A DNA stretch of 64,000 nucleotides from a virus (IMGVR_UViG_3300044630_005784:1-64000), one strand, 5' to 3'; counted from the first letter of the stretch, positions 3,923 through 23,128 are shown. Notes: generated by a model not told the origin, from the letters alone. Program-made: numbers and translations.

Positions 3923-3927
3923 GTGTG

Positions 3928-4520: not shown

Positions 4521-4533
4521 CCTTCGGCTAGAT

Positions 4534-4566
4534 CGAAACAGCCCCCCCTAGTGGGGGGTTGTTTTC
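4534..4566 (+). terminator. Hairpin terminator with T-rich tail
   Basis: A GAAACA-GCCCCCC / GGGGGGTTGTTTTC stem follows the zinc-ribbon gene and runs into a T-rich tract. Confidence 0.8.
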
Positions 4567-4604
4567 GTTGTGTCGCAAGTCACGAGAATAATCCACAGGC
4601 GAGG

Positions 4605-4633
4605 TTGTGTCCTGTGGAAAACCCCGGTAGCCT
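4605..4633 (+). promoter_or_regulatory. Promoter for the gene at 4670
   Basis: The -35 is TTGTGT (4605-4610) and the -10 TAGCCT (4628-4633), with a 17-bp spacer. A degenerate CRP-like half (AAGTCACG) lies upstream. The leader has CACCTACTAGCACC. Confidence 0.65.
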
Positions 4634-4669
4634 GCTACCTACACCTACTAGCACCTGAAAGGAGGAAAA

Positions 4670-4945: not shown

Positions 4946-4946
4946 C

Positions 4947-4974
4947 CTGATCCCCCGTACCAGCCGGGGGTCAG
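4947..4974. terminator. Bidirectional terminator
   Basis: A CTGATCCCCCG / CGGGGGTCAG stem lies between two convergent genes (4670-4945 and 4971-5207) and overlaps the end of the leftward one. Confidence 0.7.
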
Positions 4975-5207
4975 AACAGACTGTCCTGATCTAACGATGG
5001 ACGCAACTTTTTGTAATCCATGCAAGTGTTGCACAGAAGACCCGGCTCCGGTTCGGGGAACGCGATGTGGTTCGCTCCGCCGGACTTGCGGTTCTGCACC
5101 CAACCGTTCACGCGGCGCCAGACGCCCGGCTGATCGGGTCGCAACGCACAGCCACAGATGTCACAGACGTATAACGGCGGTAGCCCCGCCCGATTCGTTT
5201 CACTCAT
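4971..5207 (-). CDS. Zinc-ribbon phage protein, 78 aa
   Basis: Four cysteines in two CxxC pairs (CDICG near residue 15, CNTCM near 60) indicate a zinc ribbon. Between them lies GVWRRVNGWVQNRKSGGANHI, a motif I associate with small zinc proteins of actinobacteriophages. The function is not known. No clear leftward promoter is visible upstream; a GC-rich hairpin (5229-5260) lies there instead. It converges with the gene 4670-4945. Confidence 0.7.
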   Translation of the reverse strand: MSETNRAGLPPLYVCDICGCALRPDQPGVWRRVNGWVQNRKSGGANHIAFPEPEPGLLCNTCMDYKKLRPSLDQDSLF

Positions 5208-5340
5208 GCAGACACTTTACAGGCTGATAGTCCCGCCGCCTCACTTCGTTCGGCGGGGCTGCCGCGGCTGTGATGTCATGATGTCATGATGCGGGTGGAC
5301 GCGAAAGGCCCCCGCCGTAGCGGGGGCCGGTTCGTTCGGG
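5208..5340. other. Intergenic spacer with hairpins and a short direct repeat
   Basis: It holds an AGTCCCGCCG...CGGCGGGGCT hairpin of the module type (5229-5260), the direct repeat TGATGTCA (twice, near 5272-5288) and a terminator hairpin GGCCCCCGC / GCGGGGGCC (5307-5328) for the leftward operon 5341-5741. Confidence 0.7.
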
Positions 5341-5463
5341 TCAGGCTTCGCAGTCGTGACCGTAGGCGACTTCGCAGTCGCAAAGTTTCTGCTCGCATTC
5401 TTCGCATCGCTCAAAGTCAGCGAACCCGTCGCAATCTTCGTTAGTTGGGTGCTTAGATGCCAT
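5341..5463 (-). CDS. Small Cys-rich acidic protein, 40 aa
   Basis: I do not recognise it. It has six cysteines in 40 residues, including a CEEC-x4-CDC cluster, and many Glu and Asp, so it may bind a metal. Its start overlaps the stop of the upstream gene (TGATG), which supports translation coupling. The terminator at 5307-5328 follows. Confidence 0.6.
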   Translation of the reverse strand: MASKHPTNEDCDGFADFERCEECEQKLCDCEVAYGHDCEA

Positions 5464-5741
5464 CAGTCGTCCGCCTCGTTCCAACTGTCAATGATGGCGT
5501 GGAGTCGATAGTTTTCGACGATGGCCCACGCTGGGGCGCTTGTGTCGCCCTTGTACAGAACACCTTCGGGAAGGTCGATGTACTGATTGCCTTCTTCGCA
5601 GAATGCGTGGTCGATTGCTTGGACGCAGATGGGGATCATCACGTCGGGGACGGGTGGGTAACAGTTTGCTTTCAGATGCCACGAAACTGCTGTTTCGATG
5701 TTGGTCTCTGACGCAAGGTCGAAGAGGTTGTTGTATCCCAT
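5463..5741 (-). CDS. Hypothetical phage protein, 92 aa
   Basis: The function is unknown. The protein is predicted mainly helical and contains an internal LPEGVLYKGDTSAPAWAIVE segment. It is the first gene of a two-gene leftward operon with the Cys-rich 40-residue protein. The promoter is at 5778-5822; the leader carries CACCTACTACC and the SD GAAAGG. Confidence 0.75.
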   Translation of the reverse strand: MGYNNLFDLASETNIETAVSWHLKANCYPPVPDVMIPICVQAIDHAFCEEGNQYIDLPEGVLYKGDTSAPAWAIVENYRLHAIIDSWNEADD

Positions 5742-5777
5742 TCGGTTCCTTTCGGTAGTAGGTGACTTACAAGGTAC

Positions 5778-5822
5778 ACCTTACCGGGGTCAGGACCGTT
5801 TTCCACCGTGACACTTGTCACA
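5778..5822 (-). promoter_or_regulatory. Leftward promoter with CRP-like operator
   Basis: The operator TGTGACAAGTGTCACG (5807-5822, minus strand) abuts the -35 GTGGAA (5801-5806); the -10 is TAAGGT (5778-5783), 17-bp spacer. It drives 5463-5741. Confidence 0.75.
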
Positions 5823-5833
5823 AGGTGTGGAGG

Positions 5834-5862
5834 TTGGTATTCGCTGCTGTCCCCTATAGAGT
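5834..5862 (+). promoter_or_regulatory. Rightward promoter for the gene at 5897
   Basis: The -35 TTGGTA (5834-5839) and the -10 TAGAGT (5857-5862) are 17 bp apart. The divergent layout copies that at 2800-2883: one CRP-like site between a GTGGAA-type leftward and a TTGGTA-type rightward promoter. Confidence 0.7.
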
Positions 5863-5896
5863 GTTGGTCACTACCCCTACTACGGAAAGGTCGCTC

Positions 5897-6193
5897 ATGA
5901 ATGGCGACATCAGGATTGTGAAGATCACCCCTACAGGTGACATCTACAAGCACCCTGCCCGTTACTCGGCAGGAAACGAATGGACATTCCCCATCGAATA
6001 CACGTTGGAAGATGGCCGCGTATTCTCATCACGATCGACGCACAAGCGTCTGAAAGATGCGAAGGCTGAACTAGCAACACTTCCTTGCGAGCCACGGAAT
6101 CACACCACGGCAATCTTCCATGATGACAAGTTTGCTGGCGTGACGATCCACTACGGCATGATTACCGCGTGGCCCGTCGCAACGCTCGGCTGA
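5897..6193 (+). CDS. Hypothetical protein, 98 aa
   Basis: I do not recognise it. The ATG follows the SD GGAAAGG and a CTACTACGG leader. The protein alternates strands and one helix (RSTHKRLKDAKAEL), and a small alpha/beta fold is likely. It is a single gene; the inverted repeat at 6199-6233 follows and doubles as the next promoter. Confidence 0.7.
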   Translation: MNGDIRIVKITPTGDIYKHPARYSAGNEWTFPIEYTLEDGRVFSSRSTHKRLKDAKAELATLPCEPRNHTTAIFHDDKFAGVTIHYGMITAWPVATLG

Positions 6194-6198
6194 ATCTG

Positions 6199-6237
6199 TA
6201 CAGGGGGGTTGTGATTCTCGCGACCCCCCTGTATGCT
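6199..6237 (+). promoter_or_regulatory. Terminator hairpin containing a promoter
   Basis: A perfect 11-bp inverted repeat, TACAGGGGGGT / ACCCCCCTGTA (6199-6233), encloses the -35 TTGTGA (6209-6214). Its right arm runs into the -10 TATGCT (6232-6237), with a 17-bp spacer. The same DNA can therefore end the upstream transcript and start the one for 6273-6706. Confidence 0.7.
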
Positions 6238-6272
6238 GTCTCTATACACCTACTACCCGTAAGGAGATTCCC

Positions 6273-6476
6273 GTGACCGTACTTATCTGTCACCCCGGAA
6301 CCGGCACGATTATCGACGCAAGCGAATGCTACGTCCTGACTGTCTACGATGATGACATCGACACCGAAACCATCGAATCAGCGATGGACAGTTTCTATCA
6401 GATGGTCTCGCCCGAAGGTACTCACTTAGAGACCCTCGAAGGCGTTCTCGATCCATCACTCAGAAAGAGAATGTGA
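6273..6476 (+). CDS. Hypothetical protein, 67 aa
   Basis: I do not recognise it. The GTG start follows TAAGGAG. It begins with two strands (VLICHPGTGTII, CYVLTVYDDD) and continues with an amphipathic helix, so a small alpha/beta domain is likely. It overlaps the next gene by four bases if that gene starts at its GTG. Promoter at 6209-6237. Confidence 0.7.
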   Translation: MTVLICHPGTGTIIDASECYVLTVYDDDIDTETIESAMDSFYQMVSPEGTHLETLEGVLDPSLRKRM

Positions 6477-6706
6477 CTATGCACCCCGTCCAATACCACT
6501 ACATCGTGTGGGCAGAGGTCCATGACGGCAAAACCGTTTGGAACGTGGACATCGAAGGCGATGGCCTACTGTTCGATGGACCTGTCTACGACCCGAACGC
6601 CACGCTAGGCGACGAATGGCGCACCCTCAACGAAGACGAGCAAGGCCTCGACAATCGGCTCTACGCCGAACTACGGGATCGACTGAAGATCGGGGAGGGG
6701 GACTGA
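6473..6706 (+). CDS. Hypothetical acidic protein, 77 aa
   Basis: I do not recognise it. Either the GTG at 6473 or the ATG at 6479 could start it; a weak AGAAAGAG SD favours the ATG slightly. The N-terminal half reads as beta strands (YHYIVWAEV, TVWNVDIEG) and the C-terminal half as an acidic helix. It is translationally linked to the 67-residue gene. Its stop lies inside a GAGGGGG / CCCCCTC hairpin (6695-6713). Confidence 0.7.
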   Translation: MTMHPVQYHYIVWAEVHDGKTVWNVDIEGDGLLFDGPVYDPNATLGDEWRTLNEDEQGLDNRLYAELRDRLKIGEGD

Positions 6707-6713
6707 CCCCCTC
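6695..6713. terminator. Hairpin over the stop codon
   Basis: A GAGGGGG / CCCCCTC stem with an ACTGA loop contains the stop codon of the upstream gene. It also lies 30-45 bp ahead of the leftward element at 6740-6766. Confidence 0.6.
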
Positions 6714-6739
6714 AACCCGGCAGGAGAGCCTTGCCAGTC

Positions 6740-6766
6740 TCTAATAACCTTACGGTGTCGATTTCG
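6740..6766 (-). promoter_or_regulatory. Conserved leftward promoter-like element, copy 6
   Basis: The minus-strand -10-like hexamer is TAAGGT (6747-6752), preceded by CGAAATCGACACCG and followed by TATTAGA. Confidence 0.5.
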
Positions 6767-6838
6767 GCTGACTCTAACTACAGAAGAGAACAGTCCCGCT
6801 GCCGCTGGCAGCAAAGTCATTAGCGGTAAGAAGATGAA

Positions 6839-6902
6839 AGTCCCGCCGCTTCGCTTCGCTCAGCGGGGCTGGCGCCGCGCGTTATGCACAGGCTGTGGAT
6901 AA
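6839..6902. repeat. GC hairpin and DnaA-box pair (module 6)
   Basis: The hairpin AGTCCCGCCGC...GCGGGGCT (6839-6870) precedes a TTATGCACA box (6882-6890) and a perfect reverse DnaA box (6894-6902). This is the smallest module; no rightward gene follows, and two convergent units meet here instead. Confidence 0.65.
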
Positions 6903-6938
6903 CCGGTGCGGGGCCTCCCGCTCGCGTGGGGGTGGGTG

Positions 6939-6962
6939 GTGACCCGCCGTTAGGCGGGCCAC
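6939..6962. terminator. Hairpin terminator for the leftward operon
   Basis: A CCCGCC / GGCGGG stem extended by flanking GTG/CAC pairs overlaps the stop codon of the leftward gene 6950-7135. Confidence 0.6.
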
Positions 6963-7135
6963 GCTTCCCTCGGTCGGAGTCCGTCGCCGAACACTTGTTC
7001 GAGTGCTTCTTCTGTTCCGCAGTCGGAGCAAATCTCTGTCCGGTTGTCGGTGCGTGAGAGCGCGCCGGGGTAGTGGCCGGGGGTCCATGCGTTTGGAATG
7101 GGTCCGAGGCATCGGGGGCAGATTGGGGTGGTCAT
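6950..7135 (-). CDS. Zinc-finger phage protein, 61 aa
   Basis: Two cysteine pairs (CPRC near residue 6 and CSDC near 36) bracket PIPNAWTPGHYPGALSR, and a TEICSDCGTEEA motif follows. This layout recurs in small actinobacteriophage proteins of unknown function. The start overlaps the stop of the upstream gene (ATGA), with the SD GGAGGTG inside that gene. Confidence 0.75.
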   Translation of the reverse strand: MTTPICPRCLGPIPNAWTPGHYPGALSRTDNRTEICSDCGTEEALEQVFGDGLRPREAWPA

Positions 7136-7344
7136 TGTGTCACCTCCTGTGTGGTTCCGTTGGTGATTGCGGCGAGGTCGCCGCTGGCGATCATGTTGAG
7201 TAGGTCGCGTACGTCTCCGAGAGCCTCACCGTGGTAGGGCATTGCTCTGAGGTCTAGGACTGCGATTACGTCGTCCACCATTGAGGCTGCTATTAGTAGG
7301 GCTTCGTGGAGTTCGTCGGTGACTGTGATAGTTGTAGTAGGCAT
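7132..7344 (-). CDS. Hypothetical protein, 70 aa, probably leaderless
   Basis: I do not recognise it. It starts with a short strand (TTTITVTDEL) followed by helices, reminiscent of small DNA-binding or toxin-antitoxin folds, but no family is evident. I place the start at 7344 and not at the upstream 7398 because the leftward promoter (7352-7380) would begin transcription seven bases before this ATG, and 7398 lies upstream of that promoter. It is therefore likely translated from a leaderless mRNA and coupled to the 61-residue gene. Confidence 0.7.
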   Translation of the reverse strand: MPTTTITVTDELHEALLIAASMVDDVIAVLDLRAMPYHGEALGDVRDLLNMIASGDLAAITNGTTQEVTQ

Positions 7345-7351
7345 AGAAAGA

Positions 7352-7380
7352 ACGATACCGGGGTGGGGGGCAAATACCAA
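7352..7380 (-). promoter_or_regulatory. Leftward promoter giving a leaderless mRNA
   Basis: On the minus strand the -35 is TTGGTA (7375-7380) and the -10 TATCGT (7352-7357), 17 bp apart. The ATG of the gene lies seven bases beyond the -10. Confidence 0.65.
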
Positions 7381-7390
7381 CCTCGTTGCG

Positions 7391-7435
7391 TGTGACAAAT
7401 GACACGGTGGAAGTTGTAGTTGGCCCCTGTATAGT
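7391..7435 (+). promoter_or_regulatory. Promoter with CRP-like operator for the gene at 7474
   Basis: The operator TGTGACAAATGACACG (7391-7406, one mismatch in the second half) abuts the -35 GTGGAA (7407-7412). The -10 is TATAGT (7430-7435), 17-bp spacer. The leader carries CACCTACTACC. Confidence 0.75.
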
Positions 7436-7473
7436 GGTCCTTGTTAGTTACACCTACTACCGAAGGAGTCCAC

Positions 7474-7863
7474 ATGGACCCAGCAAAACTGTACGACGCA
7501 ACCGAGGCGGTGCTGGCAGCGAGAAAGGCTGCACAGGACGCTGACCTTGCCAAGAAGGCTGCCGAGGCCGAGTTTGTCGCTCTCATGGAAGATGCGAATC
7601 TCCCCTATGTCGAAACGTCTGATGGCGTTCGCATTGCTGTCGAGGTTCGACCGTCCAAGAAGTACGACGCGGCTCTCGCATCGGACCTGCTGGCCGTAGA
7701 GACGTTCGACCGTGTTGTGAAGGCTGTGATCGACGCTAAGGCGTGGAACGCTGCCTGTGAGGTCGGACTGATCGAAGATCAGATCGCCGAGAAGGTGATG
7801 ACCGTGACCTACAGCACACAGGTTCGTGTGTACGGTGACGGTGTGGCCGGTTCGCGGTCCTGA
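7474..7863 (+). CDS. Hypothetical helical protein, 129 aa
   Basis: I do not recognise it. The SD GAAGGAG sets the ATG. Residues 1-45 form an Ala/Lys/Glu-rich helix that could be a coiled coil (AVLAARKAAQDADLAKKAAEAE). A beta hairpin (YVETSDGVRIAVEVRPSK) and a further helix and strand follow. The layout, a coiled coil then a small beta domain, recurs in phage proteins of unknown role. It is a single gene between the promoters at 7391 and 7899. Confidence 0.65.
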   Translation: MDPAKLYDATEAVLAARKAAQDADLAKKAAEAEFVALMEDANLPYVETSDGVRIAVEVRPSKKYDAALASDLLAVETFDRVVKAVIDAKAWNAACEVGLIEDQIAEKVMTVTYSTQVRVYGDGVAGSRS

Positions 7864-7871
7864 CAGATCGG

Positions 7872-7927
7872 TGTGGCAACTGTCACGTTTCGCACAGGTT
7901 GTGATTCGTGGCAGTTGCCTGTAGCCT
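7872..7927 (+). promoter_or_regulatory. Promoter with upstream CRP-like site for the gene at 7961
   Basis: The CRP-like site TGTGGCAACTGTCACG (7872-7887) lies upstream of the -35 TTGTGA (7899-7904); the -10 is TAGCCT (7922-7927), 17-bp spacer. The operator is centred near -55, farther out than at the GTGGAA-type promoters. Confidence 0.7.
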
Positions 7928-7960
7928 GTTACTCACTACCCCTACTACCGAAGGATCACA

Positions 7961-8239
7961 ATGACCGACGACGAAATCTTTGCAAATCTCGCATGGGAAT
8001 GCAAGGAATCTCAAATCAACGAAATGGCCGATCACCTGCTTCGCCTCGTTATGTTCACGATGCAAGAGGATTACGAGCCGACCCCCGAAATGCAGGAGCA
8101 GTTCAATGGTCTAATGACCGACGCTGTTCTGTCCTTTGGGGCATTGACCGACTATGCCGTCGAAACAGACGCAGCGGTCGTGAGTGTTGGGGCGATGGGG
8201 CAAATCCTCATTGCAGCCCTTACAGCCCGCCAAGCGTGA
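7961..8239 (+). CDS. Hypothetical helical protein, 92 aa
   Basis: I do not recognise it. The protein is predicted nearly all-helical and acidic at its N-terminus, ending in an Ala-rich hydrophobic stretch (VSVGAMGQILIAALTA) that could be buried or membrane-associated. The SD GAAGGA and the CACTACCCCTACTACC leader match the other left-arm genes. Its stop codon lies inside the operator of the next promoter. Confidence 0.7.
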   Translation: MTDDEIFANLAWECKESQINEMADHLLRLVMFTMQEDYEPTPEMQEQFNGLMTDAVLSFGALTDYAVETDAAVVSVGAMGQILIAALTARQA

Positions 8240-8279
8240 CAAACGTCACGGTGGAACTATCGCCTACAGACGATAGAGT
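8235..8279 (+). promoter_or_regulatory. Promoter with CRP-like operator for the MoxR operon
   Basis: The operator CGTGACAAACGTCACG (8235-8250) overlaps the preceding stop codon. The -35 GTGGAA is at 8251-8256 and the -10 TAGAGT at 8274-8279, 17 bp apart. Confidence 0.75.
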
Positions 8280-8315
8280 ACTACCTACTACCCCCTACTA
8301 ACGGAAGTGAACACC

Positions 8316-9038
8316 ATGAATACCGACAACCTCCCCGAATGCTGGAAAGAGTTCTACGACGTACTCTCCGCTGGCATCGACCGCGTGATCCTGTTTGGAC
8401 CGCCCGGAACTGGCAAGACCTTCGCTGGCCTCACAGTCGGCGACACAACCGCAGGAGCGTACCGACTCGCCTGCACCGAAGAAATGACCACCGCAGACGT
8501 CACAGGCTGTTTCATGCCGACCGACACAGGCGTGTGGAAGTGGAACGACGGTGCTGCCATCAAAGCATGGCATGGTGACGGACTCACAGGCGGTCGCCTC
8601 GTCATCGACGAAATCGACCGAGCCAACGGCGACATCGAATCGCTACTACTCGCCATGACCGACACCGTGGAATCAACGGTGTGGGAACACCCCGAAACAG
8701 GCAAGCGAATCCGACCACGCGATGGGTTCTCCGTTGTGATGACCACAAACTTGGAGCAGATGACCGAACTGCCGACCGCTCTCAAAGATCGGTTCCCGGT
8801 GGCGATTAGGATCAACACCCCCCACCCGAACGCCCTCCTCGCCCTCCCCGAAGACCTCCGAGCAGCAGCAGCAGCAAGCGCTGACGCTGACCGTAGCCGA
8901 CGGTTCTCAATCCGAGCGTTTCAGTCCTACGCCAAGTTGCGTGGATCGATGGGATCGGAACGAGCAGCACGTCTGATCTTTGGAGAACGAGCCGAGGACA
9001 TTCTCGACGCCATTCGCATCAACGAGGTCGCACTATGA
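8316..9038 (+). CDS. MoxR-type AAA+ ATPase, 240 aa
   Basis: This is an AAA+ ATPase of the MoxR/CbbQ/NorQ type. Walker A (GPPGTGKT) lies at residues 28-35, Walker B (LVIDEID) at 95-101 and a sensor-1 Asn near 145. The small size fits the single-domain members of the family. MoxR ATPases work as chaperones or remodelling motors with a von Willebrand A protein, which here is the next gene, overlapping by four bases (ATGA). I prefer the ATG at 8316 to the GTG at 8307 because of its spacing from ACGGAAG. The pair is unusual in a phage; possible roles are remodelling a host complex or a metal-loading step. The ATPase call is firm, the role is not. Confidence 0.9.
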   Translation: MNTDNLPECWKEFYDVLSAGIDRVILFGPPGTGKTFAGLTVGDTTAGAYRLACTEEMTTADVTGCFMPTDTGVWKWNDGAAIKAWHGDGLTGGRLVIDEIDRANGDIESLLLAMTDTVESTVWEHPETGKRIRPRDGFSVVMTTNLEQMTELPTALKDRFPVAIRINTPHPNALLALPEDLRAAAAASADADRSRRFSIRAFQSYAKLRGSMGSERAARLIFGERAEDILDAIRINEVAL

Positions 9039-10456
9039 CCGCCCCCACGTCGCCTAGCGGTGTCGCCATGCCTGAATGGCTGGCGCGCCGCGACCGCGAA
9101 AACGGTGCATGGAACGTGGTCGCAGGACAGGCCGTCCGAGGTGACGCTTGGACCAACGCTACCGAACGCATCATGCGAGTCCCCATCGGTGGCGACGAAA
9201 CGAACCGAGTAATCCGCGCCCACGAAATGATGCACGCGAAGGTATCCCCCCTCGCAGCGAACATCGGCCAAGAGGAAGAGAATCTTCCTATCGAAGTTCT
9301 CCGAGCATCAGAAGAGATGCGCGTGAACTTGCTGGTGAAATCCGCAGGGTTCGACACCGACCTTTTAGTCGATGGCTCCGAGCGTGGCTGGGGCGAACGA
9401 GCAGCAGAGATGAAGGACTACACGTCCCTCGCTACCGCTGTCGTCGCAATGGCCGGAACGAAAGGTGCCACATCGTTTCTCCGAGGCGTCCGCAACATCG
9501 ACCCCGAACTGGCGAAGGCCGTTCGCGAGATCGAAAAAGTGGCCCTGTCACACTGGACGAAGCCTGCCCGTCGAACGAGCGACAAAGCAGTCGCAAAGAA
9601 GTTCGGGTCGACCACAAGTGTCCACTACTGCGACCAAGAGATTCCGCAGGGCTACAACGACTTCACCCTGCCGGTCGCACGTTTCCTGAACTCAGCAATC
9701 GAAGCCCTCACCCCACCGGAAGGTGAAAGTGAAAGTGACGGTGAAGATTCCACCGATGAGAAAGCAGCGGAACGCGTCAAAGACGCTGCCCGTGGCAGGC
9801 GTGGAAAGTTCGCCGACCTGATCCTCGATGAGTCGGTCGTTCTAGATCGAACAATGACTGGCCGACTTGGCCGGAAGCGAATCGCCACGAACGTGGGACG
9901 CAATCCTCGCCACATGAGCCGAATGCTCACCGATCCTCAACGTCGAATCTTCGACCGAACGGTCCGAGGCAAGGGTGGCATGGTTGTCATCGACCAGTCC
10001 GGTTCGATGTGTCTGTCGAACGGTGACATCGAAAAGATGATGGAAGCGTCCCCCGGTTGCACCATCATCGGCTACTCGCACCGACCCGGCAGCACGACCA
10101 CCCCGAACGCGTGGGTGATCGCCAAGAACGGTCGCCGAGCGTCCGAGGTTCCCTCAGGACACGGTGGCAACGGGGTCGATGGCCCTGTCCTCCGGTTCGC
10201 TATCTCGTCTGCCCGTAAGGGTGAGCCGATCGTGTGGGTCTGCGATGGTCTCGTCACAGATGGAAGAAACGATACTTCCTTCAGGAATCTAGATGAAGAG
10301 TGCGCTCGGCTGGTACGCAAAAACGGAATCCACATGGTGGCGTCCGTACAAGGCGTCGAAGCGGCTCTCCTGAAAGTTGCGAGTGGAAAGAAACTACCGA
10401 CGACGTATGTCGGTCAGGTTCGGGCCACAGCAATCGACCTCGGGTTCCTGTACTGA
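9035..10456 (+). CDS. VWA-domain protein with HExxH motif, MoxR partner, 473 aa
   Basis: The C-terminal part has a MIDAS-like DxSxS motif (DQSGS, about residues 320-324) after a VVI strand, typical of von Willebrand A domains that pair with MoxR ATPases. The N-terminal part contains HEMMH at residues 63-67, which fits the zinc-metallopeptidase HExxH pattern, with acidic residues some 30 positions later (RASEEMRVN) that could supply a third ligand. A charged linker (GESESDGEDSTDEKAAERVK, about residues 230-250) separates the two halves. It resembles in outline the predicted metal-dependent peptidases with a VWA-like domain (COG3864/DUF2201), but I cannot confirm homology. Start and stop overlap the ATPase gene, and the operon ends at the terminator 10464-10494. 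Confidence 0.8.
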   Translation: MTAPTSPSGVAMPEWLARRDRENGAWNVVAGQAVRGDAWTNATERIMRVPIGGDETNRVIRAHEMMHAKVSPLAANIGQEEENLPIEVLRASEEMRVNLLVKSAGFDTDLLVDGSERGWGERAAEMKDYTSLATAVVAMAGTKGATSFLRGVRNIDPELAKAVREIEKVALSHWTKPARRTSDKAVAKKFGSTTSVHYCDQEIPQGYNDFTLPVARFLNSAIEALTPPEGESESDGEDSTDEKAAERVKDAARGRRGKFADLILDESVVLDRTMTGRLGRKRIATNVGRNPRHMSRMLTDPQRRIFDRTVRGKGGMVVIDQSGSMCLSNGDIEKMMEASPGCTIIGYSHRPGSTTTPNAWVIAKNGRRASEVPSGHGGNGVDGPVLRFAISSARKGEPIVWVCDGLVTDGRNDTSFRNLDEECARLVRKNGIHMVASVQGVEAALLKVASGKKLPTTYVGQVRATAIDLGFLY

Positions 10457-10463
10457 CGAGTTG

Positions 10464-10494
10464 ACCGGGGGGCGTTGTCCCCCCGGTTTCTTTC
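10464..10494 (+). terminator. Hairpin terminator
   Basis: An ACCGGGGGG / CCCCCCGGT stem followed by TTCTTTC ends the MoxR-VWA operon. Confidence 0.85.
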
Positions 10495-10502
10495 TCCCGA
10501 GG

Positions 10503-10531
10503 TTGTTATTCGACCTAGCACCCTGTATCCT
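10503..10531 (+). promoter_or_regulatory. Promoter for the 10567-11147 operon
   Basis: The -35 TTGTTA (10503-10508) and the -10 TATCCT (10526-10531) are 17 bp apart. The leader has CTACTACCCCTACTACC. No CRP-like site is visible. Confidence 0.65.
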
Positions 10532-10566
10532 TACAACTACTACCCCTACTACCGACTGGACTAGAA

Positions 10567-10854
10567 ATGCCTTACACGACTCAACAAATACCCGCAGAGA
10601 TGTTCATGCGTCATAACGACGTAGGCGTCTACCACACCTACAAGAACGACGACATGGACATAAACCCTCCTCGCGACTACTGGTTCGTCACCGACCCCTT
10701 TCAGGGTGAGGACGATTCCTTCGACGTGCGCGACCTCCCCGGCTACGACGCTCCGGTTGGAAGCGAGTACCTCAGATGGTACCTGCAAGATTTCCTTGCC
10801 TCACTCATCGAGTCCGGCGTCATCACCGCCGACGGAGTGCAGGTGACAGCATGA
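10567..10854 (+). CDS. Hypothetical protein, 95 aa
   Basis: I do not recognise it. The SD is weak (ACTGGACTAG). The protein is aromatic- and Asp-rich in its first half and ends in a helix (LRWYLQDFLASLIESG). It is the first of two overlapping genes; the next starts inside its last codons (ATGA). Confidence 0.7.
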   Translation: MPYTTQQIPAEMFMRHNDVGVYHTYKNDDMDINPPRDYWFVTDPFQGEDDSFDVRDLPGYDAPVGSEYLRWYLQDFLASLIESGVITADGVQVTA

Positions 10855-11147
10855 CCGACGTCCGAATCTCAGACACACGCGACATCAAGGCCCTCAACTC
10901 GTTAGCCATCACCAACGGCTACAGCCGAGCCGCCTCCGACAACGCAATCGCAATGCTCGACCCCGACGGCATTCACCTTGTCAACTTCACAATGGTCCAC
11001 AACGACGACCACATGCGAATCGGGTTCCTGTGCAAGTTCCTAAACTGCGACGAACCTATCCACCTGTGGATCGACGCCTCGTTCGAAGACTACGACCTTC
11101 ACTGCCACGTCCTAGAGGGCTACAGCGAGATCGCGGCAGCGTCGTAA
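10851..11147 (+). CDS. Hypothetical protein, 98 aa
   Basis: I do not recognise it. It has an N-terminal helix with a TNGYSRAASDNAIAML segment, then strands (HLVNFTMVHNDDHMRIGFLCKFLN, PIHLWIDASF). It is coupled to the 95-residue gene upstream and followed by a leftward-element-like sequence (11164-11180) and a convergent terminator (11213-11242). Confidence 0.7.
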   Translation: MTDVRISDTRDIKALNSLAITNGYSRAASDNAIAMLDPDGIHLVNFTMVHNDDHMRIGFLCKFLNCDEPIHLWIDASFEDYDLHCHVLEGYSEIAAAS

Positions 11148-11157
11148 CCACTCAGCA

Positions 11158-11180
11158 TTTTAAAATCTACGGTGAAGATT
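11158..11180 (-). promoter_or_regulatory. Degenerate leftward element, possible copy 7
   Basis: On the minus strand GAAATCTTCACCG is followed by the -10-like TAGATT. The stretch GGTGAA-GAT-TTCACC is also a perfect palindrome. It would transcribe back over the end of the gene 10851-11147. CCGGTAGGGT, typical of a rightward -10, follows at about 11195-11204. Confidence 0.35.
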
Positions 11181-11212
11181 TCACCAACAAAATCCCCGGT
11201 AGGGTAGGTAGA

Positions 11213-11242
11213 AGAGGGCCATCGCAAGATGGCCCTCTTCGC
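11213..11242. terminator. Bidirectional terminator
   Basis: A GAAGAGGGCCATC / GATGGCCCTCTTC stem with a GCAA loop separates the rightward operon ending at 11147 from the leftward operon ending at 11248. Confidence 0.85.
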
Positions 11243-11247
11243 TGTCC

Positions 11248-11559
11248 CTACTTCCTTGTGAACGCAGCCTTGTCAAAGACTCGGATCAAGTTCACAGCCA
11301 AAGCGATCGAAACAAACGGACCCCACGGCAACCCTGTGTTGTCGATAAATCCAACCTGCTCGATCATTCTGAAGATTGCCCACACCAAGGAACCCTGAAT
11401 GAGACTCAAGACAATCAGCACAACCAGCCCAACGAAGAAACCTTTGGTTGCCTGCGACGAAGCGTCGTCCGTGGGACGGGGTGGCTGGAAGTCTCTGAAC
11501 TCCTTTGGCTCAAAGAAGTCCTTTGACTCAAACGACCAGAAGCCCTTTGGGTCGCTCAT
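11248..11559 (-). CDS. Membrane protein, 103 aa
   Basis: Two hydrophobic segments (about residues 40-62, GFFVGLVVLIVLSLI..., and 75-95) indicate an inner-membrane protein with two spans. The N-terminal 35 residues are soluble and rich in Phe, Pro and charged residues (KDFFEPKEFRDF). No family is evident. It overlaps the upstream regulator gene by four bases, so the two form one operon driven from 11944-11972. Confidence 0.75.
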   Translation of the reverse strand: MSDPKGFWSFESKDFFEPKEFRDFQPPRPTDDASSQATKGFFVGLVVLIVLSLIQGSLVWAIFRMIEQVGFIDNTGLPWGPFVSIALAVNLIRVFDKAAFTRK

Positions 11560-11936
11560 GCGACTGGCGCGTGGAGTCGAACGATCTGGTGGACTCGCTG
11601 ACGACTCAGTCCGAACTGATCGCCAATGCGTTGGAGTGAAATGCCCTGCGACCGGAGTGTCATGATTTCAAGGTTTCGTTCGATGTCCGCTGTTGGGCCG
11701 GGAGGGAGTGGACCCCACTGCCATCCGAGTGTTGCGGTGAGGATTTCGGTTCGCTCTGGTGAGAGGAGTCCCGCTCGCTGGCGCTGGCGGACGTACCCGA
11801 CCCATGTTCCGAGGTTCAGAACAGTCCCGTCGTCGAGAGTTTCGACGTGGGATGCCGGGACTCGCGCGTGTCCGTTTTTTTCGACGTAAGCGGTGAGTGC
11901 GGAAAGGTATAGATTCCATTTTTGTTGGTTTGTCAT
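11556..11936 (-). CDS. Helicase-associated-domain and HTH regulator, 126 aa
   Basis: Residues 5-75 match the helicase-associated domain pattern (WNLYLSALTAYVEKNGHARVP... LGTWVGYVRQRQRAGLLSPER... LGWQWG), a small DNA-binding fold (PF03457 type). Residues 90-122 form a sigma-region-4-like helix-turn-helix (SLQRIGDQFGLSRQRVHQIVR). It is therefore likely a DNA-binding regulator. I start it at the ATG 11936: the promoter would begin transcription one base before, giving a leaderless mRNA, and earlier in-frame codons lie inside the promoter. It is divergent from the gene at 12044 and may regulate either promoter. Confidence 0.8.
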   Translation of the reverse strand: MTNQQKWNLYLSALTAYVEKNGHARVPASHVETLDDGTVLNLGTWVGYVRQRQRAGLLSPERTEILTATLGWQWGPLPPGPTADIERNLEIMTLRSQGISLQRIGDQFGLSRQRVHQIVRLHAPVA

Positions 11937-11943
11937 GTGACGA

Positions 11944-11972
11944 ACCTTACATCTAGTTGATGTGGGGAACAA
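11944..11972 (-). promoter_or_regulatory. Leftward promoter giving a leaderless mRNA
   Basis: On the minus strand the -35 is TTGTTC (11967-11972) and the -10 TAAGGT (11944-11949), 17 bp apart. The ATG lies seven bases past the -10. Confidence 0.6.
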
Positions 11973-11982
11973 ATAGGGTAAG

Positions 11983-12011
11983 TTGTGATTTCTATTGACG
12001 CCCTGTATGCT
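11983..12011 (+). promoter_or_regulatory. Promoter for the gene at 12044
   Basis: The -35 TTGTGA (11983-11988) and the -10 TATGCT (12006-12011) are 17 bp apart. Confidence 0.7.
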
Positions 12012-12633: not shown

Positions 12634-13173
12634 ATGGGACTCGATAACATTCCCCACAACTACCCCTGCAAAAGCGGCGGCACAGCCGTCCTAACCCCAC
12701 GCCTTGACCGAGAAGGCAAAGCGTTTGTCGAAGAGGACGGTTCGCCCGCACTCGTCATCGACTGTAAGGCTACGCAAGAAGCCGGTGGCTGTCCGTGGTA
12801 CAACGACGAGAGCCGCCCAACCGACGGTGGCGTTATCGGTATTTTCGGAACTGATTGCTGGTATCGAGGCAAACTCGGAAACGAGTTGCTAGAAAACGTG
12901 CTTGGCATTTCTTATGACGAGACGGAAGGCATCTCTTTCTACGGCTCAAACGCTGACGGCGACTACAAGTCGCCTCAAGAATGTCTGAAACTCGCCACCT
13001 TCATTGAGGACGCAATCGCCGACACCGAATGGGTTGCCGACCCGTCCACAATCGACTATTTAGAAACCGGAATCGAAGCGGCTGCCATCGAAGAAAAAGA
13101 CTACTGCGTGTACGCCGCATGGTGGCTTCGCTGGGTCGCAGAAAACGCTGACGGCACCGACTGCTGGTACTGA
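12634..13173 (+). CDS. Conserved phage protein, 179 aa
   Basis: The sequence has a recognisable actinobacteriophage layout: MGLDNIPHNYPC at the start, then a C..GGCPW motif (near residue 50), then GIFGTDCWYRGKLGN (about residues 70-85) and a helical C-terminus rich in Trp. The paired cysteines and conserved Trp/Gly suggest a compact metal-binding or enzyme-like domain, but I know no function. The SD CTAAGGAA and CCTACTACC leader support the start. Confidence 0.7.
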   Translation: MGLDNIPHNYPCKSGGTAVLTPRLDREGKAFVEEDGSPALVIDCKATQEAGGCPWYNDESRPTDGGVIGIFGTDCWYRGKLGNELLENVLGISYDETEGISFYGSNADGDYKSPQECLKLATFIEDAIADTEWVADPSTIDYLETGIEAAAIEEKDYCVYAAWWLRWVAENADGTDCWY

Positions 13174-13201
13174 ACTCCCCTACTACCCCTAAGGAATCAC
13201 A

Positions 13202-13495
13202 ATGGATTACACCTCAAACCTCAAGTACGATCAGAACCACCACTTCTACGAGTTCCTGATCGCCCTCTCAACCACAGAAGGGATCATCACGGTCCGTGAA
13301 AAACTTCACCACCACGATGACCTAGTAGACACATGGGCGTCACTAGATCAGTCGTACCGACGTGCGATCGACGAGATCACCGCGTTGTGTGAGAAGTGGC
13401 TCGTCGAAGACGAGGCCGTCGATCAGTATTCGATTGTCGCGATCAACGACGATCTGTGCTGGAAAGAGCGACTCGAACTCCCAGCAAGAACCTGA
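13202..13495 (+). CDS. Hypothetical protein, 97 aa
   Basis: I do not recognise it. It is predicted all-helical, with a HHHDDLVD cluster in the middle, and is acidic. The SD TAAGGAA and a CTACTACCCC leader precede the ATG. It lies only 28 bp after the previous gene, so it probably shares that transcript. Confidence 0.7.
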   Translation: MDYTSNLKYDQNHHFYEFLIALSTTEGIITVREKLHHHDDLVDTWASLDQSYRRAIDEITALCEKWLVEDEAVDQYSIVAINDDLCWKERLELPART

Positions 13496-13552
13496 CACGG
13501 GCTACTGCCCCCCCGATAAGATTACCTACACCTACTAACGAAAGAGGCAATC

Positions 13553-14101
13553 ATGCCCAACTGGTGCGATAACAACCTAACCATTACCGGCGACGCCGAC
13601 GAACTCAAACGATTCGTAGCGGCAATCACCAACTCCGACGAATCCATCACCATTCTCAAAAACCTTGTTCCGTTCCCAGCGGAACTCGAAGGAGAAGACA
13701 TTCTCGACAAGGACGGCAATGCGATTGCGCGCGCCTTTACCGACAGCGGCTACTCATGGTGCCTCCGAAACTGGGGGACCAAGTGGGCGGACTGCGATAC
13801 TGAAATCATTATCTACGCCGACTATCTCATGCTGAAGTACGCAACTGCGTGGTCACCAGCCATAGAGGGTTTGTCTCAAATCTCACGACTCTTCCCAACC
13901 CTCACCTTTCAGACCGACTGGACCGAAGAGGGCATGTGTTCTATCGGTGCAGCCTGCTTTCAGGATGGACAAGAGTCAATCTACGAAGTTCCCGAATCGG
14001 ACTGGCCTGAGTTGGGGCATGACGAAGATGGTGAAGAAGACTGGCAGTCGTGGCAGGATGCTGTCTGCGAACTTCGAGAGAAAGCGATTGAGAGCGTCTG
14101 A
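13553..14101 (+). CDS. Api92-like / DUF1281-like protein, 182 aa
   Basis: The MPNWCDNNLTITGD start is the hallmark of the Api92/DUF1281 family of phage proteins with a ferredoxin-like N-terminal domain. The middle has WCLRNWGTKWADCD, another family signature, and the C-terminus is acidic (LGHDEDGEEDW). The function is unknown. The SD AAAGAGG and the CACCTACTAAC leader match neighbouring genes. A possible -10 (TAAGAT, near 13520) lacks a clear -35. Confidence 0.8.
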   Translation: MPNWCDNNLTITGDADELKRFVAAITNSDESITILKNLVPFPAELEGEDILDKDGNAIARAFTDSGYSWCLRNWGTKWADCDTEIIIYADYLMLKYATAWSPAIEGLSQISRLFPTLTFQTDWTEEGMCSIGAACFQDGQESIYEVPESDWPELGHDEDGEEDWQSWQDAVCELREKAIESV

Positions 14102-14103
14102 TC

Positions 14104-14373
14104 ATGAGTACCTACACAAACATCGACGAAATCATTGCCGCATCAAACCGAAACGGGTTCATCACCGGCGAGGTCGTCATTCCCCTCATCGACATCGTTC
14201 ATTTAGATCTCGATAGTTTCTACGACCGACTTGCCGAACTGCTCGTCGATGACATTCGACTTTGCGAAATCGAATTCGATGTCATCGGCACCGCCGACAA
14301 CGACTGCATCGTGCTTCGTGTTAGCGGAGACACGTCTTCCATAATCGACGCAAACCTTGACGCTAAGGTCTAA
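14104..14373 (+). CDS. Hypothetical protein, 89 aa
   Basis: I do not recognise it. It is acidic, with an Ile/Val-rich strand (GEVVIPLIDIVHLDL) followed by a helix and strands. It begins three bases after the previous stop, so it is probably co-translated with the Api92-like gene. Confidence 0.65.
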   Translation: MSTYTNIDEIIAASNRNGFITGEVVIPLIDIVHLDLDSFYDRLAELLVDDIRLCEIEFDVIGTADNDCIVLRVSGDTSSIIDANLDAKV

Positions 14374-14375
14374 CC

Positions 14376-14600
14376 ATGGCCGAAACAATCCAAACCAGCA
14401 AAAAAACATTCATACTCCTCAACCCCGAGGAAACAGAAGCAATGCGAAAACTACTGGAACTCGGATTCATCAAACTTTGCGAAACCGAATCAACCACCAA
14501 AAACCACGAGAGCCGCGAAGAACTGAAAATAATCGCAGGAAACTCCTTCGATCTCCTCAAAAGCCTCAACGTCAAACCCTACGAAACAGAAAACACATGA
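14376..14600 (+). CDS. Hypothetical protein, 74 aa
   Basis: I do not recognise it. The first strand (KKTFILLNPEETEAMRKLLELGFIKL) leads into helices. It starts three bases after the previous stop, and its stop overlaps the next start (ATGA). Confidence 0.65.
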   Translation: MAETIQTSKKTFILLNPEETEAMRKLLELGFIKLCETESTTKNHESREELKIIAGNSFDLLKSLNVKPYETENT

Positions 14601-19425: not shown

Positions 19426-19774
19426 ACCCCCACAAAAATCAGCCACCACCGGACCCAACTACATTCAAGTACGCCTACCCGGCTGGCTTAAAAATCAACT
19501 TATCGAACATGCAGAGAAACTTGACTGCACTTTAAACGCATGGCTGGTCGAAGCAATTCAAACACAGTTGCGTGCTGACCTGTCGCTACCTGAGCCTCCA
19601 CCGGCTCGTGCACCGTTGCCTACGACTGCTGACATGATTCGTGTTTGGGCTGTTGGTGAGCGGATTATTACTCCGTGTGGGAAGGTGTCTTGTCCGGCGG
19701 TGCAGGAGGGTGATTACCGTTGGGAGCATGATGGTATGGGTTTTTGTAATGAGTGTGGGATTCGGGTGGTTTAG
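19418..19774 (+). CDS. Ribbon-helix-helix protein with zinc ribbon, 118 aa
   Basis: Residues 15-50 form a ribbon-helix-helix (YIQVRLPGWLKNQLIEHAEKLDCTLNAWLVEAIQTQL). After a Pro-rich linker, a zinc-ribbon-like region follows with Cys pairs (CGKVSC and CNECG). The layout matches the protein at 18918, so the two are probably paralogues. The GTG start lies within the end of the 55-residue gene. The stop overlaps the stop of the convergent WhiB gene (TTAG). Confidence 0.7.
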   Translation: MPRPPQKSATTGPNYIQVRLPGWLKNQLIEHAEKLDCTLNAWLVEAIQTQLRADLSLPEPPPARAPLPTTADMIRVWAVGERIITPCGKVSCPAVQEGDYRWEHDGMGFCNECGIRVV

Positions 19775-20130
19775 AGGCGGTTTGCCCACATTTGTGCGAG
19801 TGTGGGTCGTATGGGTTTGATTCCTCGTTTGCGTTGTTCTGCTGCGAGTTGTCGGGGGGTTAGTCCTGCCCATACTCCGTGTAGGTCTGCTGTGGGGAAT
19901 TGGAGTGCGTATTCGAGGCATTGGGTTTGGACTGTGCAGTTGCGGCATAGTGAGCGTGCGGCGGGTATGTAGGTGATGTCTTTGTAGGCTTTGGGGAACA
20001 TGAGTTCGCCTTTGCCTTTGCAGTTGGCGTTGTTTCGCCATTTGGGGTTTGGTTGGTTTGTTGTGTGTATTTCTTTTGGGTTGTTGTTGTTGGGTTGTTT
20101 TTGGTTGGGTGGGTTTTCGGGGTTGCTCAT
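19771..20130 (-). CDS. whiB-like: WhiB-family transcriptional regulator, 119 aa
   Basis: Four cysteines in the WhiB spacing (C37, C62, C65, C71) should bind a [4Fe-4S] cluster, and the G-V-W-A-G-L-T turn (85-91) followed by a basic stretch is the WhiB DNA-contact motif. WhiB proteins are found almost only in actinobacteria and their phages, where they partner the main sigma factor and can alter host transcription. The N-terminal 30 residues are Asn/Pro-rich and not conserved. It is the last gene of a leftward operon whose promoter carries a LexA box (22669-22680). Confidence 0.92.
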   Translation of the reverse strand: MSNPENPPNQKQPNNNNPKEIHTTNQPNPKWRNNANCKGKGELMFPKAYKDITYIPAARSLCRNCTVQTQCLEYALQFPTADLHGVWAGLTPRQLAAEQRKRGIKPIRPTLAQMWANRL

Positions 20131-20594
20131 CGGTGGAGTTGTTGGATTTTGAGGATCATTCCGCGGGGGATGGTGATTGAGTGTCCGCCTGTGGAGTCGT
20201 TCATTAGGGAGATGATGGTTACCCATTCGGGGTGGTCTGTGATGAGGTATCCGACTGAGAGTGTTTCGCAGGGTTGGATTTCTTGTAGGTCGTCGATGTC
20301 CATCCATTCGGTGATGGCGTTGGCTACTGCGTCGATCCAGAGGATTTCGATGATGACGTAGCGGTCCCATTCGGGGTGGAGGTCATAGGCTTTGTATTGG
20401 TTTCCGACTCCATAGGTGAGTTTGACTATTGGAGTGTTCTTTGCTTCCCCCGTGTTCTTCTCTCCCCTAGGGATGGATACGGGTTCTGGGGAGGACGTGG
20501 ATGTAGGTCGCGACGCTTTGTCGGTGGCGGGCTTGGGTTGTACTGGTTTGGTTGGTGCTTTCTTGACGCCCATTCGCTGCTGGTTGGTTTTCAC
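20127..20594 (-). CDS. Hypothetical protein, 155 aa
   Basis: I do not recognise it. The first 50 residues are basic, Pro/Thr/Ser-rich and likely disordered; the remainder is a compact beta-rich domain (IVKLTYGVGNQYKAYDL, RYVIIEILWIDAV, SITIPRGMILKIQQLH). I start it at the GTG 20594, which overlaps the upstream stop (GTGA); an ATG eight codons in is the alternative. It overlaps the WhiB gene (ATGA). Confidence 0.65.
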   Translation of the reverse strand: MKTNQQRMGVKKAPTKPVQPKPATDKASRPTSTSSPEPVSIPRGEKNTGEAKNTPIVKLTYGVGNQYKAYDLHPEWDRYVIIEILWIDAVANAITEWMDIDDLQEIQPCETLSVGYLITDHPEWVTIISLMNDSTGGHSITIPRGMILKIQQLHR

Positions 20595-20941
20595 GGTGCT
20601 TGTCCTTTTTTGCTCCAGTGGAGGGCGAGTGTGGCGAGGGCTATTACTGCTGCCCATTGGGCTAGTTGGTTGTTGATGATTACTGCGATTATGAGGAGGA
20701 TTGCGGTTGTTGCGAGTAGGAGTGCGCATAGTCCGATGATGGCGTATACGAGTGATGAGAATGCGATGTAAAGGAGTTGTTGGGCGAAGTTGAGTTCGTC
20801 TGGCTCTTGCTCGTAGTCGAACCGTTGTTCGTAGTACCGGGAGTCTTGATATAGCCCATCTCGGTCGAGGTCGTTTGGTGGTGTTGGAAGGTGTTCGTTG
20901 TGGTTTGGGCTGTTGAGCCATTCATCGAACCAGTCCTTCAT
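20591..20941 (-). CDS. Membrane protein, 116 aa
   Basis: An acidic N-terminal region of about 50 residues precedes a long hydrophobic stretch that can make two or three spans (LLYIAFSSLVYAIIGLCALLLATTAILLIIAVII, then LAQWAAVIALATLAL). It is probably an inner-membrane protein of unknown role. The start overlaps the phosphoesterase stop (ATGA). Confidence 0.7.
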   Translation of the reverse strand: MKDWFDEWLNSPNHNEHLPTPPNDLDRDGLYQDSRYYEQRFDYEQEPDELNFAQQLLYIAFSSLVYAIIGLCALLLATTAILLIIAVIINNQLAQWAAVIALATLALHWSKKGQAP

Positions 20942-22155
20942 AGGAGGGTCATTTCTCCCCATCCGTCTGGGGCGACGACCATTGAGAGGGTTCCGGCTCG
21001 GGTGCGGGTTCCTGTCATGTCGGACCAGTATTCGGATACTTGTGTGAGTGATGGGGTGATGAAGACTGCTCGGCCTTCTTGTTCTTTGACGTTCAGGTGG
21101 TGGTAGTGACCGGCGATGAGTAGTTGTGAGTCGGCTACTCCGGGGTATGCCCTGCCCATGGTTTGTGATTGCCACCATCCCCAGAGGGTTTCGGCTGCGT
21201 TGCCTTTGGGGCGTGCGACGTGTCCGTGTGTGAAAGCAACATTTGTGCCAGACAAATTTAAAGAGACTGCGATTTCGTCCCTACTTAGTCTCCACCCAAT
21301 GTGTCCATAGGCTGAAGGATTCGTGGAAAGTATCTCGGCCACTTGTTCGAAGACTGCGACGTCATCGTTGTCATGTACTGCAGTAAAGGCCTTCTTGCCT
21401 TGCCGGTTTTCGCCATGATTACCGGGAATCGCAACCCCGATTAATTTATCTGTATGTGGAGCGACGGCCATAAAGATGTCTCGTACGGCTCGACGTACAA
21501 ACTTGACCTGATCCCGTCGATCGAGTTCCACTCGGAACGGTTGGGCGCTATAGAAGCCTTGGCAGTTTTCAACAAGATCGCCAAGTCCGGCGATGCAAAC
21601 CTGTCCGATTCCTACGCGCGCGCGCCGAAGATCAGCAATGCGGTCTGGGATTGATTCAACTAAAGCGGCTGCTGCTTTTGCTTGCGCTTCGACTCCTCCG
21701 CCGTCACAGTTACCAATTTGCCAGTCCGACAGAGCAACGACAAAAGTGGCGTCACCGGTTGGGGGGCTTTTCTTGGTCTTTTTGGCCTTCCGAACCTCCT
21801 GATATACATCTTCAGGAAGTGCTTCAAGTTTTCGTCGCCGCCGAATCTCCGCTTTAAATGAATATTGGATGCAGGAAACCGCTTGTTCGCCTTGTTCGTC
21901 GCGCTTCCATCCGTCCCATGAACACCATCGCATGGTGTCGCCGACGACTTCGTATTCTTCAGGGTCGAGTCCTCGTGCTCGGAGTAGGTCGTCCCATTCA
22001 CCGGGGGGGCTGTCAAGAGTTCCGGTTGTGATAATTCCTTGAGTACCATCCCAGACAACTCCGGGTTCCCATCCAGAGGGAACGGTGCGTTCGCGACTTG
22101 CTTCGGGTTCTTCTTCGCGACCTTCTAAAGATGAGAGTCGATCGGACAGATTCAT
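20938..22155 (-). CDS. Calcineurin-like metallophosphoesterase, 405 aa
   Basis: The metal-binding motifs of the calcineurin-like phosphoesterase fold appear in order: SDWQIG (D-x-Q/H, about residue 143), GLGDLVEN (GD, about 190), GNHGE (about 248), THGHVARP (about 312) and AGHYHHL (about 347). The family includes Mre11/SbcD-type nucleases and other phosphatases; in actinobacteriophages related proteins are often labelled MRE11-like. The N-terminal 130 residues (with DGWKRDEQGEQ) are an extra domain, possibly for DNA binding. It is the largest gene of the LexA-box operon. Confidence 0.85.
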   Translation of the reverse strand: MNLSDRLSSLEGREEEPEASRERTVPSGWEPGVVWDGTQGIITTGTLDSPPGEWDDLLRARGLDPEEYEVVGDTMRWCSWDGWKRDEQGEQAVSCIQYSFKAEIRRRRKLEALPEDVYQEVRKAKKTKKSPPTGDATFVVALSDWQIGNCDGGGVEAQAKAAAALVESIPDRIADLRRARVGIGQVCIAGLGDLVENCQGFYSAQPFRVELDRRDQVKFVRRAVRDIFMAVAPHTDKLIGVAIPGNHGENRQGKKAFTAVHDNDDVAVFEQVAEILSTNPSAYGHIGWRLSRDEIAVSLNLSGTNVAFTHGHVARPKGNAAETLWGWWQSQTMGRAYPGVADSQLLIAGHYHHLNVKEQEGRAVFITPSLTQVSEYWSDMTGTRTRAGTLSMVVAPDGWGEMTLL

Positions 22156-22403
22156 GTTGTTCTCGTTTCTTTACACCCGCACCAGTTGTTGCGATGAACG
22201 CCTAATGCTTCGCGGGCTACACGGATACCTGATTCACGGAGTTCGGCATGAATGGCCCGAAGTGAAGTTTTACTGCCAGTCAAGAGGTTCTCAAGAATTT
22301 CAGCAGTGTCGCTATCGAGTTCTGTCTTAATCTCTCTGACTCGACAAGGCCGTTGGCCCTGAACTGTTTCAATCATCGAAAGCCGTTCTTTCAAAGACGT
22401 CAT
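22152..22403 (-). CDS. Hypothetical protein, 83 aa
   Basis: I do not recognise it. It is helical, with a RESGIRVAREALGVHRNNW segment near the C-terminus that could be a helix-turn-helix. I use the ATG at 22403 because it overlaps the upstream stop (ATGA); an in-frame TTG lies three codons earlier. The stop overlaps the phosphoesterase start. Confidence 0.65.
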   Translation of the reverse strand: MTSLKERLSMIETVQGQRPCRVREIKTELDSDTAEILENLLTGSKTSLRAIHAELRESGIRVAREALGVHRNNWCGCKETRTT

Positions 22404-22633
22404 TTCTTCCAACTCTCCCCATCATTGAGCAACCAATGAGCAACCAAACCGCCGATAACTCCACCGGCAATTTCGGCACCCATCCTTTGATTAGCAATCC
22501 AACGAACGCCCTGAGAAATACTCGGCCGACCCAAACCTCGCATAATCCCGTTATAAACAAGCGCAGCACAAAGAAGGAATAGCGGCCCGATCAAAAACTG
22601 CAGGGCGTTTGGGCGGTAGTTTGTCGTGTCCAT
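22400..22633 (-). CDS. Membrane protein, 77 aa
   Basis: Two hydrophobic spans (ALQFLIGPLFLLCAALVYNGIM, and AGGVIGGLVAHWLL) with a short loop suggest a small membrane protein, perhaps holin-like in size, but nothing else supports lysis. It is the first gene of the LexA-box operon. No SD is evident in the short leader. I place the start at 22633 because in-frame codons farther upstream lie within or beyond the promoter. Confidence 0.65.
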   Translation of the reverse strand: MDTTNYRPNALQFLIGPLFLLCAALVYNGIMRGLGRPSISQGVRWIANQRMGAEIAGGVIGGLVAHWLLNDGESWKK

Positions 22634-22658
22634 GGCAGTCGCATTGGCGCTGCCGATG

Positions 22659-22680
22659 AGTATACGCTGAACATATGTTC
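22659..22680 (-). promoter_or_regulatory. LexA box overlapping a leftward promoter
   Basis: GAACATATGTTC (22669-22680), with a flanking CGA on the right, matches the actinobacterial/Bacillus LexA box. On the minus strand it is followed by the -10-like TATACT (22659-22664), so a bound repressor would block RNA polymerase. The rightward gene at 22694 begins 14 bp away on the other side. Confidence 0.7.
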
Positions 22681-22693
22681 GAAAGCCAGCACC

Positions 22694-23128
22694 ATGAATG
22701 ATCACCCACTCAAAGCACCAGTACAAAACGCAATTAACCAAGCACTGGATACCGATAGCGATCTATCTGCAGAAGCAATTACCGAGCAAGTAATGCGGGC
22801 GCTCGATGAACGTGGAGTTATCCAGTACGCGCCAAAAGGAACACTGCCTCTGCTCTCCGCCGCAGGACGAGTCTTTGTATGCATCGCAGAAAACCCAAGA
22901 ATCACGTTGCGCGAGATTTCGGTAATGCTTGGGGTAACGGAATCCAACGTTGCTAGGTCTGTATCAAAACTTGTTGCTTCTGGAGTCATAGCAAGAACAA
23001 AAGTCAAGAACAGAAATGTGTACACAATTAAGATAAAAACGGCCAAAAAACACCCTGATATACATCGGTTTTACGAAGCGATCGATCCTCTTTGGCTTGA
23101 AGATGGAGAAAACGCACCACTTTTCTAA
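22694..23128 (+). CDS. Winged-helix (MarR-like) regulator, 144 aa
   Basis: Residues 50-115 form a winged helix-turn-helix: AAGRVFVCIAENPRITLREISVMLGVTESNVARSVSKLVASGVIARTKVKNRNVYTIKI, with the typical recognition helix and wing. An N-terminal helix may serve dimerisation, and the C-terminus is acidic. It is divergent from the LexA-box operon and 14 bp from the box, so it is probably regulated with it and may regulate it. No strong SD is visible. Confidence 0.8.
   Translation: MNDHPLKAPVQNAINQALDTDSDLSAEAITEQVMRALDERGVIQYAPKGTLPLLSAAGRVFVCIAENPRITLREISVMLGVTESNVARSVSKLVASGVIARTKVKNRNVYTIKIKTAKKHPDIHRFYEAIDPLWLEDGENAPLF

Follow-up and report, generated by a model that had tools for sequence, protein, structure and literature searches.

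A conserved operon for a predicted nuclease and a WhiB-like protein in tailed phages of Actinomycetota, with a possible LexA-type site at its promoter in one of them

Genes and promoter elements at the divergent locus

The window analysed here, 64,000 nucleotides long, comprises bases 1-64000 of a 69,534-base (69.5-kb) phage fragment, and the terminase-like protein and tail-type proteins that it encodes place it among the tailed phages. No Rfam families or tRNAs were found in the window. Six ORFs run leftward, downstream of a palindrome, from a 60-bp gap (22634-22693) that separates the first start codon of this operon (22633) from the ATG (22694) of a rightward gene for a winged-helix, HTH_24/MarR-like regulator of 144 aa (22694-23128, plus strand). 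On the minus strand, gene 1 (22400-22633) encodes a small hydrophobic (membrane) protein of 77 aa that is seen in the nearest relatives only, gene 2 (22152-22412) a small HTH-like protein of 86 aa with no confident Pfam match, and gene 3 (20938-22155) a metallophosphoesterase (MPE) of 405 aa. These are followed by gene 4 (20591-20941), encoding a membrane protein of 116 aa, gene 5 (20127-20594), encoding a protein of unknown function of 155 aa with a weak match to PHROG 25889, and gene 6 (19771-20130), encoding a WhiB-like protein of 119 aa. At each of the last four junctions, stop and start overlap by 4 bases (22155/22152, 20941/20938, 20594/20591 and 20130/20127), and the six overlapping leftward genes described in the original prediction were thus confirmed.

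The WhiB that had been placed in this operon is also borne out. Gene 6 matches the Pfam family Whib (5e-13; 49.8 bits against a cut-off of 23.6) and the WhiB PHROG (4e-17), and when aligned to solved WhiB1 structures it keeps the four conserved cysteines and the G-V-W-x-G motif, here in the form GVWAG.

The metallophosphoesterase, for which a possible nuclease function had been suggested, is indeed encoded by gene 3. It matches PHROG 284, annotated as "exonuclease", at 1.7e-50; the Pfam family Metallophos_2 scored 16.8 bits, under its cut-off of 27, and a sequence search for solved relatives returned weak VPS29 matches only. In structure comparison (Foldseek was run too), the predicted model of the MPE (mean pLDDT 74.5) had its best match in DP1 of PolD, with a Z score of 18.4 and an rmsd of 3.5 over 248 residues, and its next match in Mre11 (Z 14.6, about 14). 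DP1 is the exonuclease subunit of archaeal PolD. The metal-binding motifs D144-W-Q, GD193, GNH246-247, H310-G-H312 and GHYHH are kept across 14 MPE homologues, the first motif being DWQ instead of DxH. Since the predicted fold is nearest to DP1 and Mre11 and the metal-binding motifs are conserved, the MPE is likely to be a nuclease.

The gap itself carries a 12-bp perfect palindrome, GAACATATGTTC. Read as a LexA/DinR-type palindrome, TGAACATATGTTCG (22668-22681; CGAACATATGTTCA on the minus strand), it departs from CGAAC-N4-GTTCG at one position. This consensus is that of LexA in Bacillus (PMC4551915), and it is close to the Streptomyces LexA motif tCGAAC-N4-GNNCGa (PMC9380542). Adjoining the palindrome is a -10-like TATACT of a leftward promoter (22659-22664, minus strand), and TATACT or TAGACT recurs in about 10 relatives. 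We could not find a -35-like hexamer that pairs with TATACT, nor any sigma-70-type promoter in the divergent region. The original prediction had placed a near-ideal LexA box between the -35 and the -10; the palindrome and its adjoining -10 are there, but since no -35 was found this placement was only half right.

Conservation in a lineage of tailed phages

A search of IMG/VR with the MPE recovered 25 relatives, and a search with an MPE alignment found many more. The divergent winged-helix gene, followed across the gap by the HTH gene and the MPE gene, is kept in this order in 26 distinct related contigs, and the winged-helix gene that the original prediction had suspected of sharing the control is therefore part of the same conserved arrangement. 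In 23 of these contigs a WhiB gene follows downstream on the strand of the MPE gene, at a distance of 1.3 to 6.2 kb from the start of that gene, and in most of the wider relative set an HTH gene stands directly before the MPE gene. It was synteny that revealed the winged-helix relatives; a search with the single protein returned none. Judged from gene order and sequence similarity, the operon is a conserved module of a tailed-phage lineage of Actinomycetota.

WhiB-like proteins are exclusive to Actinobacteria (PMC8612146). Given that Wbl proteins are found in Actinobacteria and their phages, the presence of a whiB gene here suggests that the phage infects an actinobacterium. Relatives of the MPE (L041, L042 and L043) also occur in MAGs that carry the labels Planctomycetaceae, Phycisphaerae and Acidimicrobiia; these are probably mis-binned phage contigs, as L041 and L042 also encode WhiB. 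The operon pairs a DP1/Mre11-type MPE, a predicted nuclease, with WhiB across many uncultured actinophages, which makes it well suited to studying the role of phage WhiB proteins, a question still largely open (PMC8612146).

Among the phages examined, the LexA-type palindrome over the leftward promoter was found in this one only. None of the 26 relatives, which include one with an MPE 85% identical, has a LexA-type site with at most one mismatch in the divergent region, and a two-mismatch site occurs in a single one of them. We searched IMG/VR with flanking-sequence and exact-site patterns for near-identical strains spanning the promoter and found none, in a collection from which records very close to the window may have been withheld; the sole near-identical contig, L129, begins inside gene 4.

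An S24 (LexA/CI-type) domain was found in none of the 11 larger lineage records searched, the window's own record included, and an integrase in one of the 11 (G031) and not in the window's record, all of these records being fragments. Nothing found in these fragments therefore indicates an SOS-induced prophage.

Left-end arrays and the frequency of LexA-type sites

The left arm of the window (1-12000) has a G+C content of 56-60%, against mostly 48-57% elsewhere, and carries mainly small genes without known function. An AAA ATPase gene (AAA_5) and, overlapping it by 4 bases, a gene of 473 aa with no match in Pfam lie at 8316-10453. Elsewhere in the window (58041-59509), a PD-(D/E)XK nuclease gene adjoins a Rad52/22-family gene, forming a recombination pair.

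Within 223-1040 we found six modules in which a LexA-type palindrome is followed by a CRP-type GTGAC-N4-GTCAC, with centres 14-15 bp apart. Array A (223-288, plus strand) consists of two modules, each built from CGAAC-N4-GTTCG and GTGAC-N4-GTCAC, and array B (907-1040, plus strand) of four modules of the same build; five of the six have a perfect LexA-type site and the last (1013) has a single mismatch. Composite modules of this kind did not appear in any of 200 Markov simulations. A second phage, L029, which shares a protein segment with the window's record, has five modules of the same build (12958-14437). Clusters of the DnaA box TTATCCACA lie beside arrays A and B (126-900), and 18 DnaA boxes occur in 1-8300 against 0.27 expected. 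The names "LexA-type", "CRP-type" and DnaA reflect motif resemblance. We were not able to find a phage-coded protein that might bind the arrays: S24 domains are absent from the records searched, and the record's sole match to a CRP-type HTH, under the cut-off, comes from the winged-helix protein.

Dense DnaA-box clusters between small genes were seen in the window (126-3902) and also in G011 (144623-155035), G029 (82299-103913) and G030, three larger relatives that have the operon and from which the LexA/CRP modules are absent. At 1060-8249 in the window, GTGAC-N4-GTCACG stands just before GTGGAA-N17-TANNNT, a layout that is repeated ahead of several small genes of the left arm and resembles an activator site abutting a -35.

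Perfect CGAAC-N4-GTTCG sites number 8 in the window against 0.17 expected, with five of them clustered at 223-988. The other three lie inside a small leftward gene (6988-7001), in the coding sequence of operon gene 4 (20818-20831), and inside a large rightward ORF that adjoins the terminase gene, in a portal-like position (63151-63164). The phage thus has a strong excess of LexA-type sites, most of it at the left end, a pattern stronger than that at the operon and one that the original prediction did not mention. The composite arrays there are more surprising than the operon with its candidate site. Outside the left end, that is, beyond the first 1100 bases of the window, sites with at most one mismatch number 8, against 3.4 +/- 2.0 in dinucleotide shuffles; the operon site alone among them is intergenic, the other 7 being inside genes. 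A rough gene call leaves about 12% of this part of the window between genes, where chance alone would place about 0.4 such sites; one was seen, and by this count the operon site is unremarkable. The pattern TCGAACRNNYGTTC, derived from the left-end arrays and picked after the fact, has 3 distinct occurrences beyond the left end, the operon site included, against 0.05 expected; the other two places are intragenic.

In 21 related records (~0.92 Mb) we found 11 perfect sites, mostly intragenic in the stretches read, and coding sequence alone therefore yields some perfect sites. Perfect LexA-type sites in relatives also lie in a gap 16 bases past the stop of another whiB gene (G003, 21232-21245) and in a gap about 0.5 kb upstream of yet another (G013, 57025-57038). 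A link between LexA-type sites and other whiB genes was considered on this ground and dropped, as most perfect sites in the relatives are intragenic.

Control of the operon and comparison with known systems

On balance we lean, if slightly, towards a reading in which the divergent region of the conserved operon drives the HTH protein, the predicted nuclease and WhiB in one direction and the winged-helix regulator in the other, with the winged-helix protein as the main regulator. From this one control region, leftward transcription would supply the small HTH protein, the DP1/Mre11-type MPE and, further along, the WhiB-like protein. The MPE would most likely act as a DNA exonuclease in phage replication or recombination, and the WhiB-like protein would retune host transcription. 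Rightward, the region would express the winged-helix protein, which resembles HTH_24/MarR domains (HTH_24 match 2.6e-9) and whose position, the evidence for this role, suggests that it is the most likely main regulator. Host LexA may use the palindrome as an extra brake on the leftward promoter.

The palindrome could itself be the operator through which the winged-helix protein represses both directions. It ends 12 bases before the start codon of the winged-helix gene, a usual place for the operator of an autoregulator, and that gene keeps its position opposite the operon in the relatives. Yet the winged-helix proteins of the nearest relatives (L004, L006 and L007) carry almost the same recognition helix, and none of the 26 relatives has the palindrome; for this reason the palindrome is probably not the winged-helix operator, and we consider that explanation unlikely. 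We looked for a conserved operator of the winged-helix protein among the relatives and found none, as their intergenic regions do not align usefully.

In a model built on the original prediction, host LexA would repress the operon at the palindrome until DNA damage, whether caused by the surroundings of the host or by the entry and replication of the phage, removes LexA and so turns on WhiB and the nuclease. The single mismatch to the consensus, the abutting -10, the excess of perfect sites in the window and that of TCGAACRNNYGTTC outside the left end all speak for such a switch. Against it are the absence of the site from all 26 relatives, the missing -35, the near-chance number of sites with at most one mismatch outside the left end, the intragenic position of the other two TCGAACRNNYGTTC places and the absence of an S24 domain from the records searched. 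The proposed SOS switch therefore found little support at the locus; on its side, the perfect-site arrays elsewhere in the same genome raise the prior for a real LexA site here and make a lineage-specific one plausible. We regard the switch as doubtful though conceivable; SOS control of the operon is possible, through a predicted site that conservation does not support. Considerable weight, if short of acceptance, goes to the palindrome being a functionless chance sequence, as is consistent with the 0.4 intergenic sites expected where one was seen and with its lack of conservation; its exact position over the promoter and its 12 bp of perfect symmetry argue the other way, as does the excess of perfect LexA-type sites across the genome. 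The operon site may belong to the left-end LexA-type set, as an outlier specific to this lineage, or it may be chance.

A wider reading, in which the phage runs a regulon on three host regulators through its LexA/CRP-type arrays and DnaA boxes, and in which the WhiB/nuclease operon belongs to that regulon as a LexA-type outlier, seems improbable to us. If true, it would mean that the virus reads the damage, nutrient and replication state of its host together, or that it titrates these regulators from the host. Should the LexA-type sites prove real, the program of the phage would be tied to the host damage response with no repressor or integrase that can be recognised. The composite arrays of the left end offer a compact DNA target for asking how one phage exploits several host regulators simultaneously.

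A site of the CGAAC-N4-GTTCG type at a phage promoter is also found in Bacillus phage GIL01 (PMC4551915). LexA binding has been demonstrated for GIL01, a temperate phage that does not itself integrate, whereas the window's record shows neither an integrase nor an S24 repressor and its site is a predicted one. WhiB-like genes are carried by actinobacteriophages such as TM4 (PMC8612146), and the protein encoded here is likewise a phage-borne WhiB-like protein, with the four cysteines and G-V-W-x-G. What sets it apart is the place of its gene at the end of an operon that also encodes an HTH protein and a predicted DP1/Mre11-type MPE, in uncultured phages.

With the calcineurin-like nucleases PolD DP1 and Mre11, the MPE shares the predicted fold over most of its C-terminal 270 residues as well as the metal motifs, but identity is about 10-16% and Q replaces H in the first motif (DWQ). 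Over 89-94% of its length the MPE is homologous, at ~31% identity, to the PHROG 284 exonucleases of the Streptomyces phages Endor1 and Joe and to the Gilgamesh metallophosphoesterase, which are much more diverged from it.
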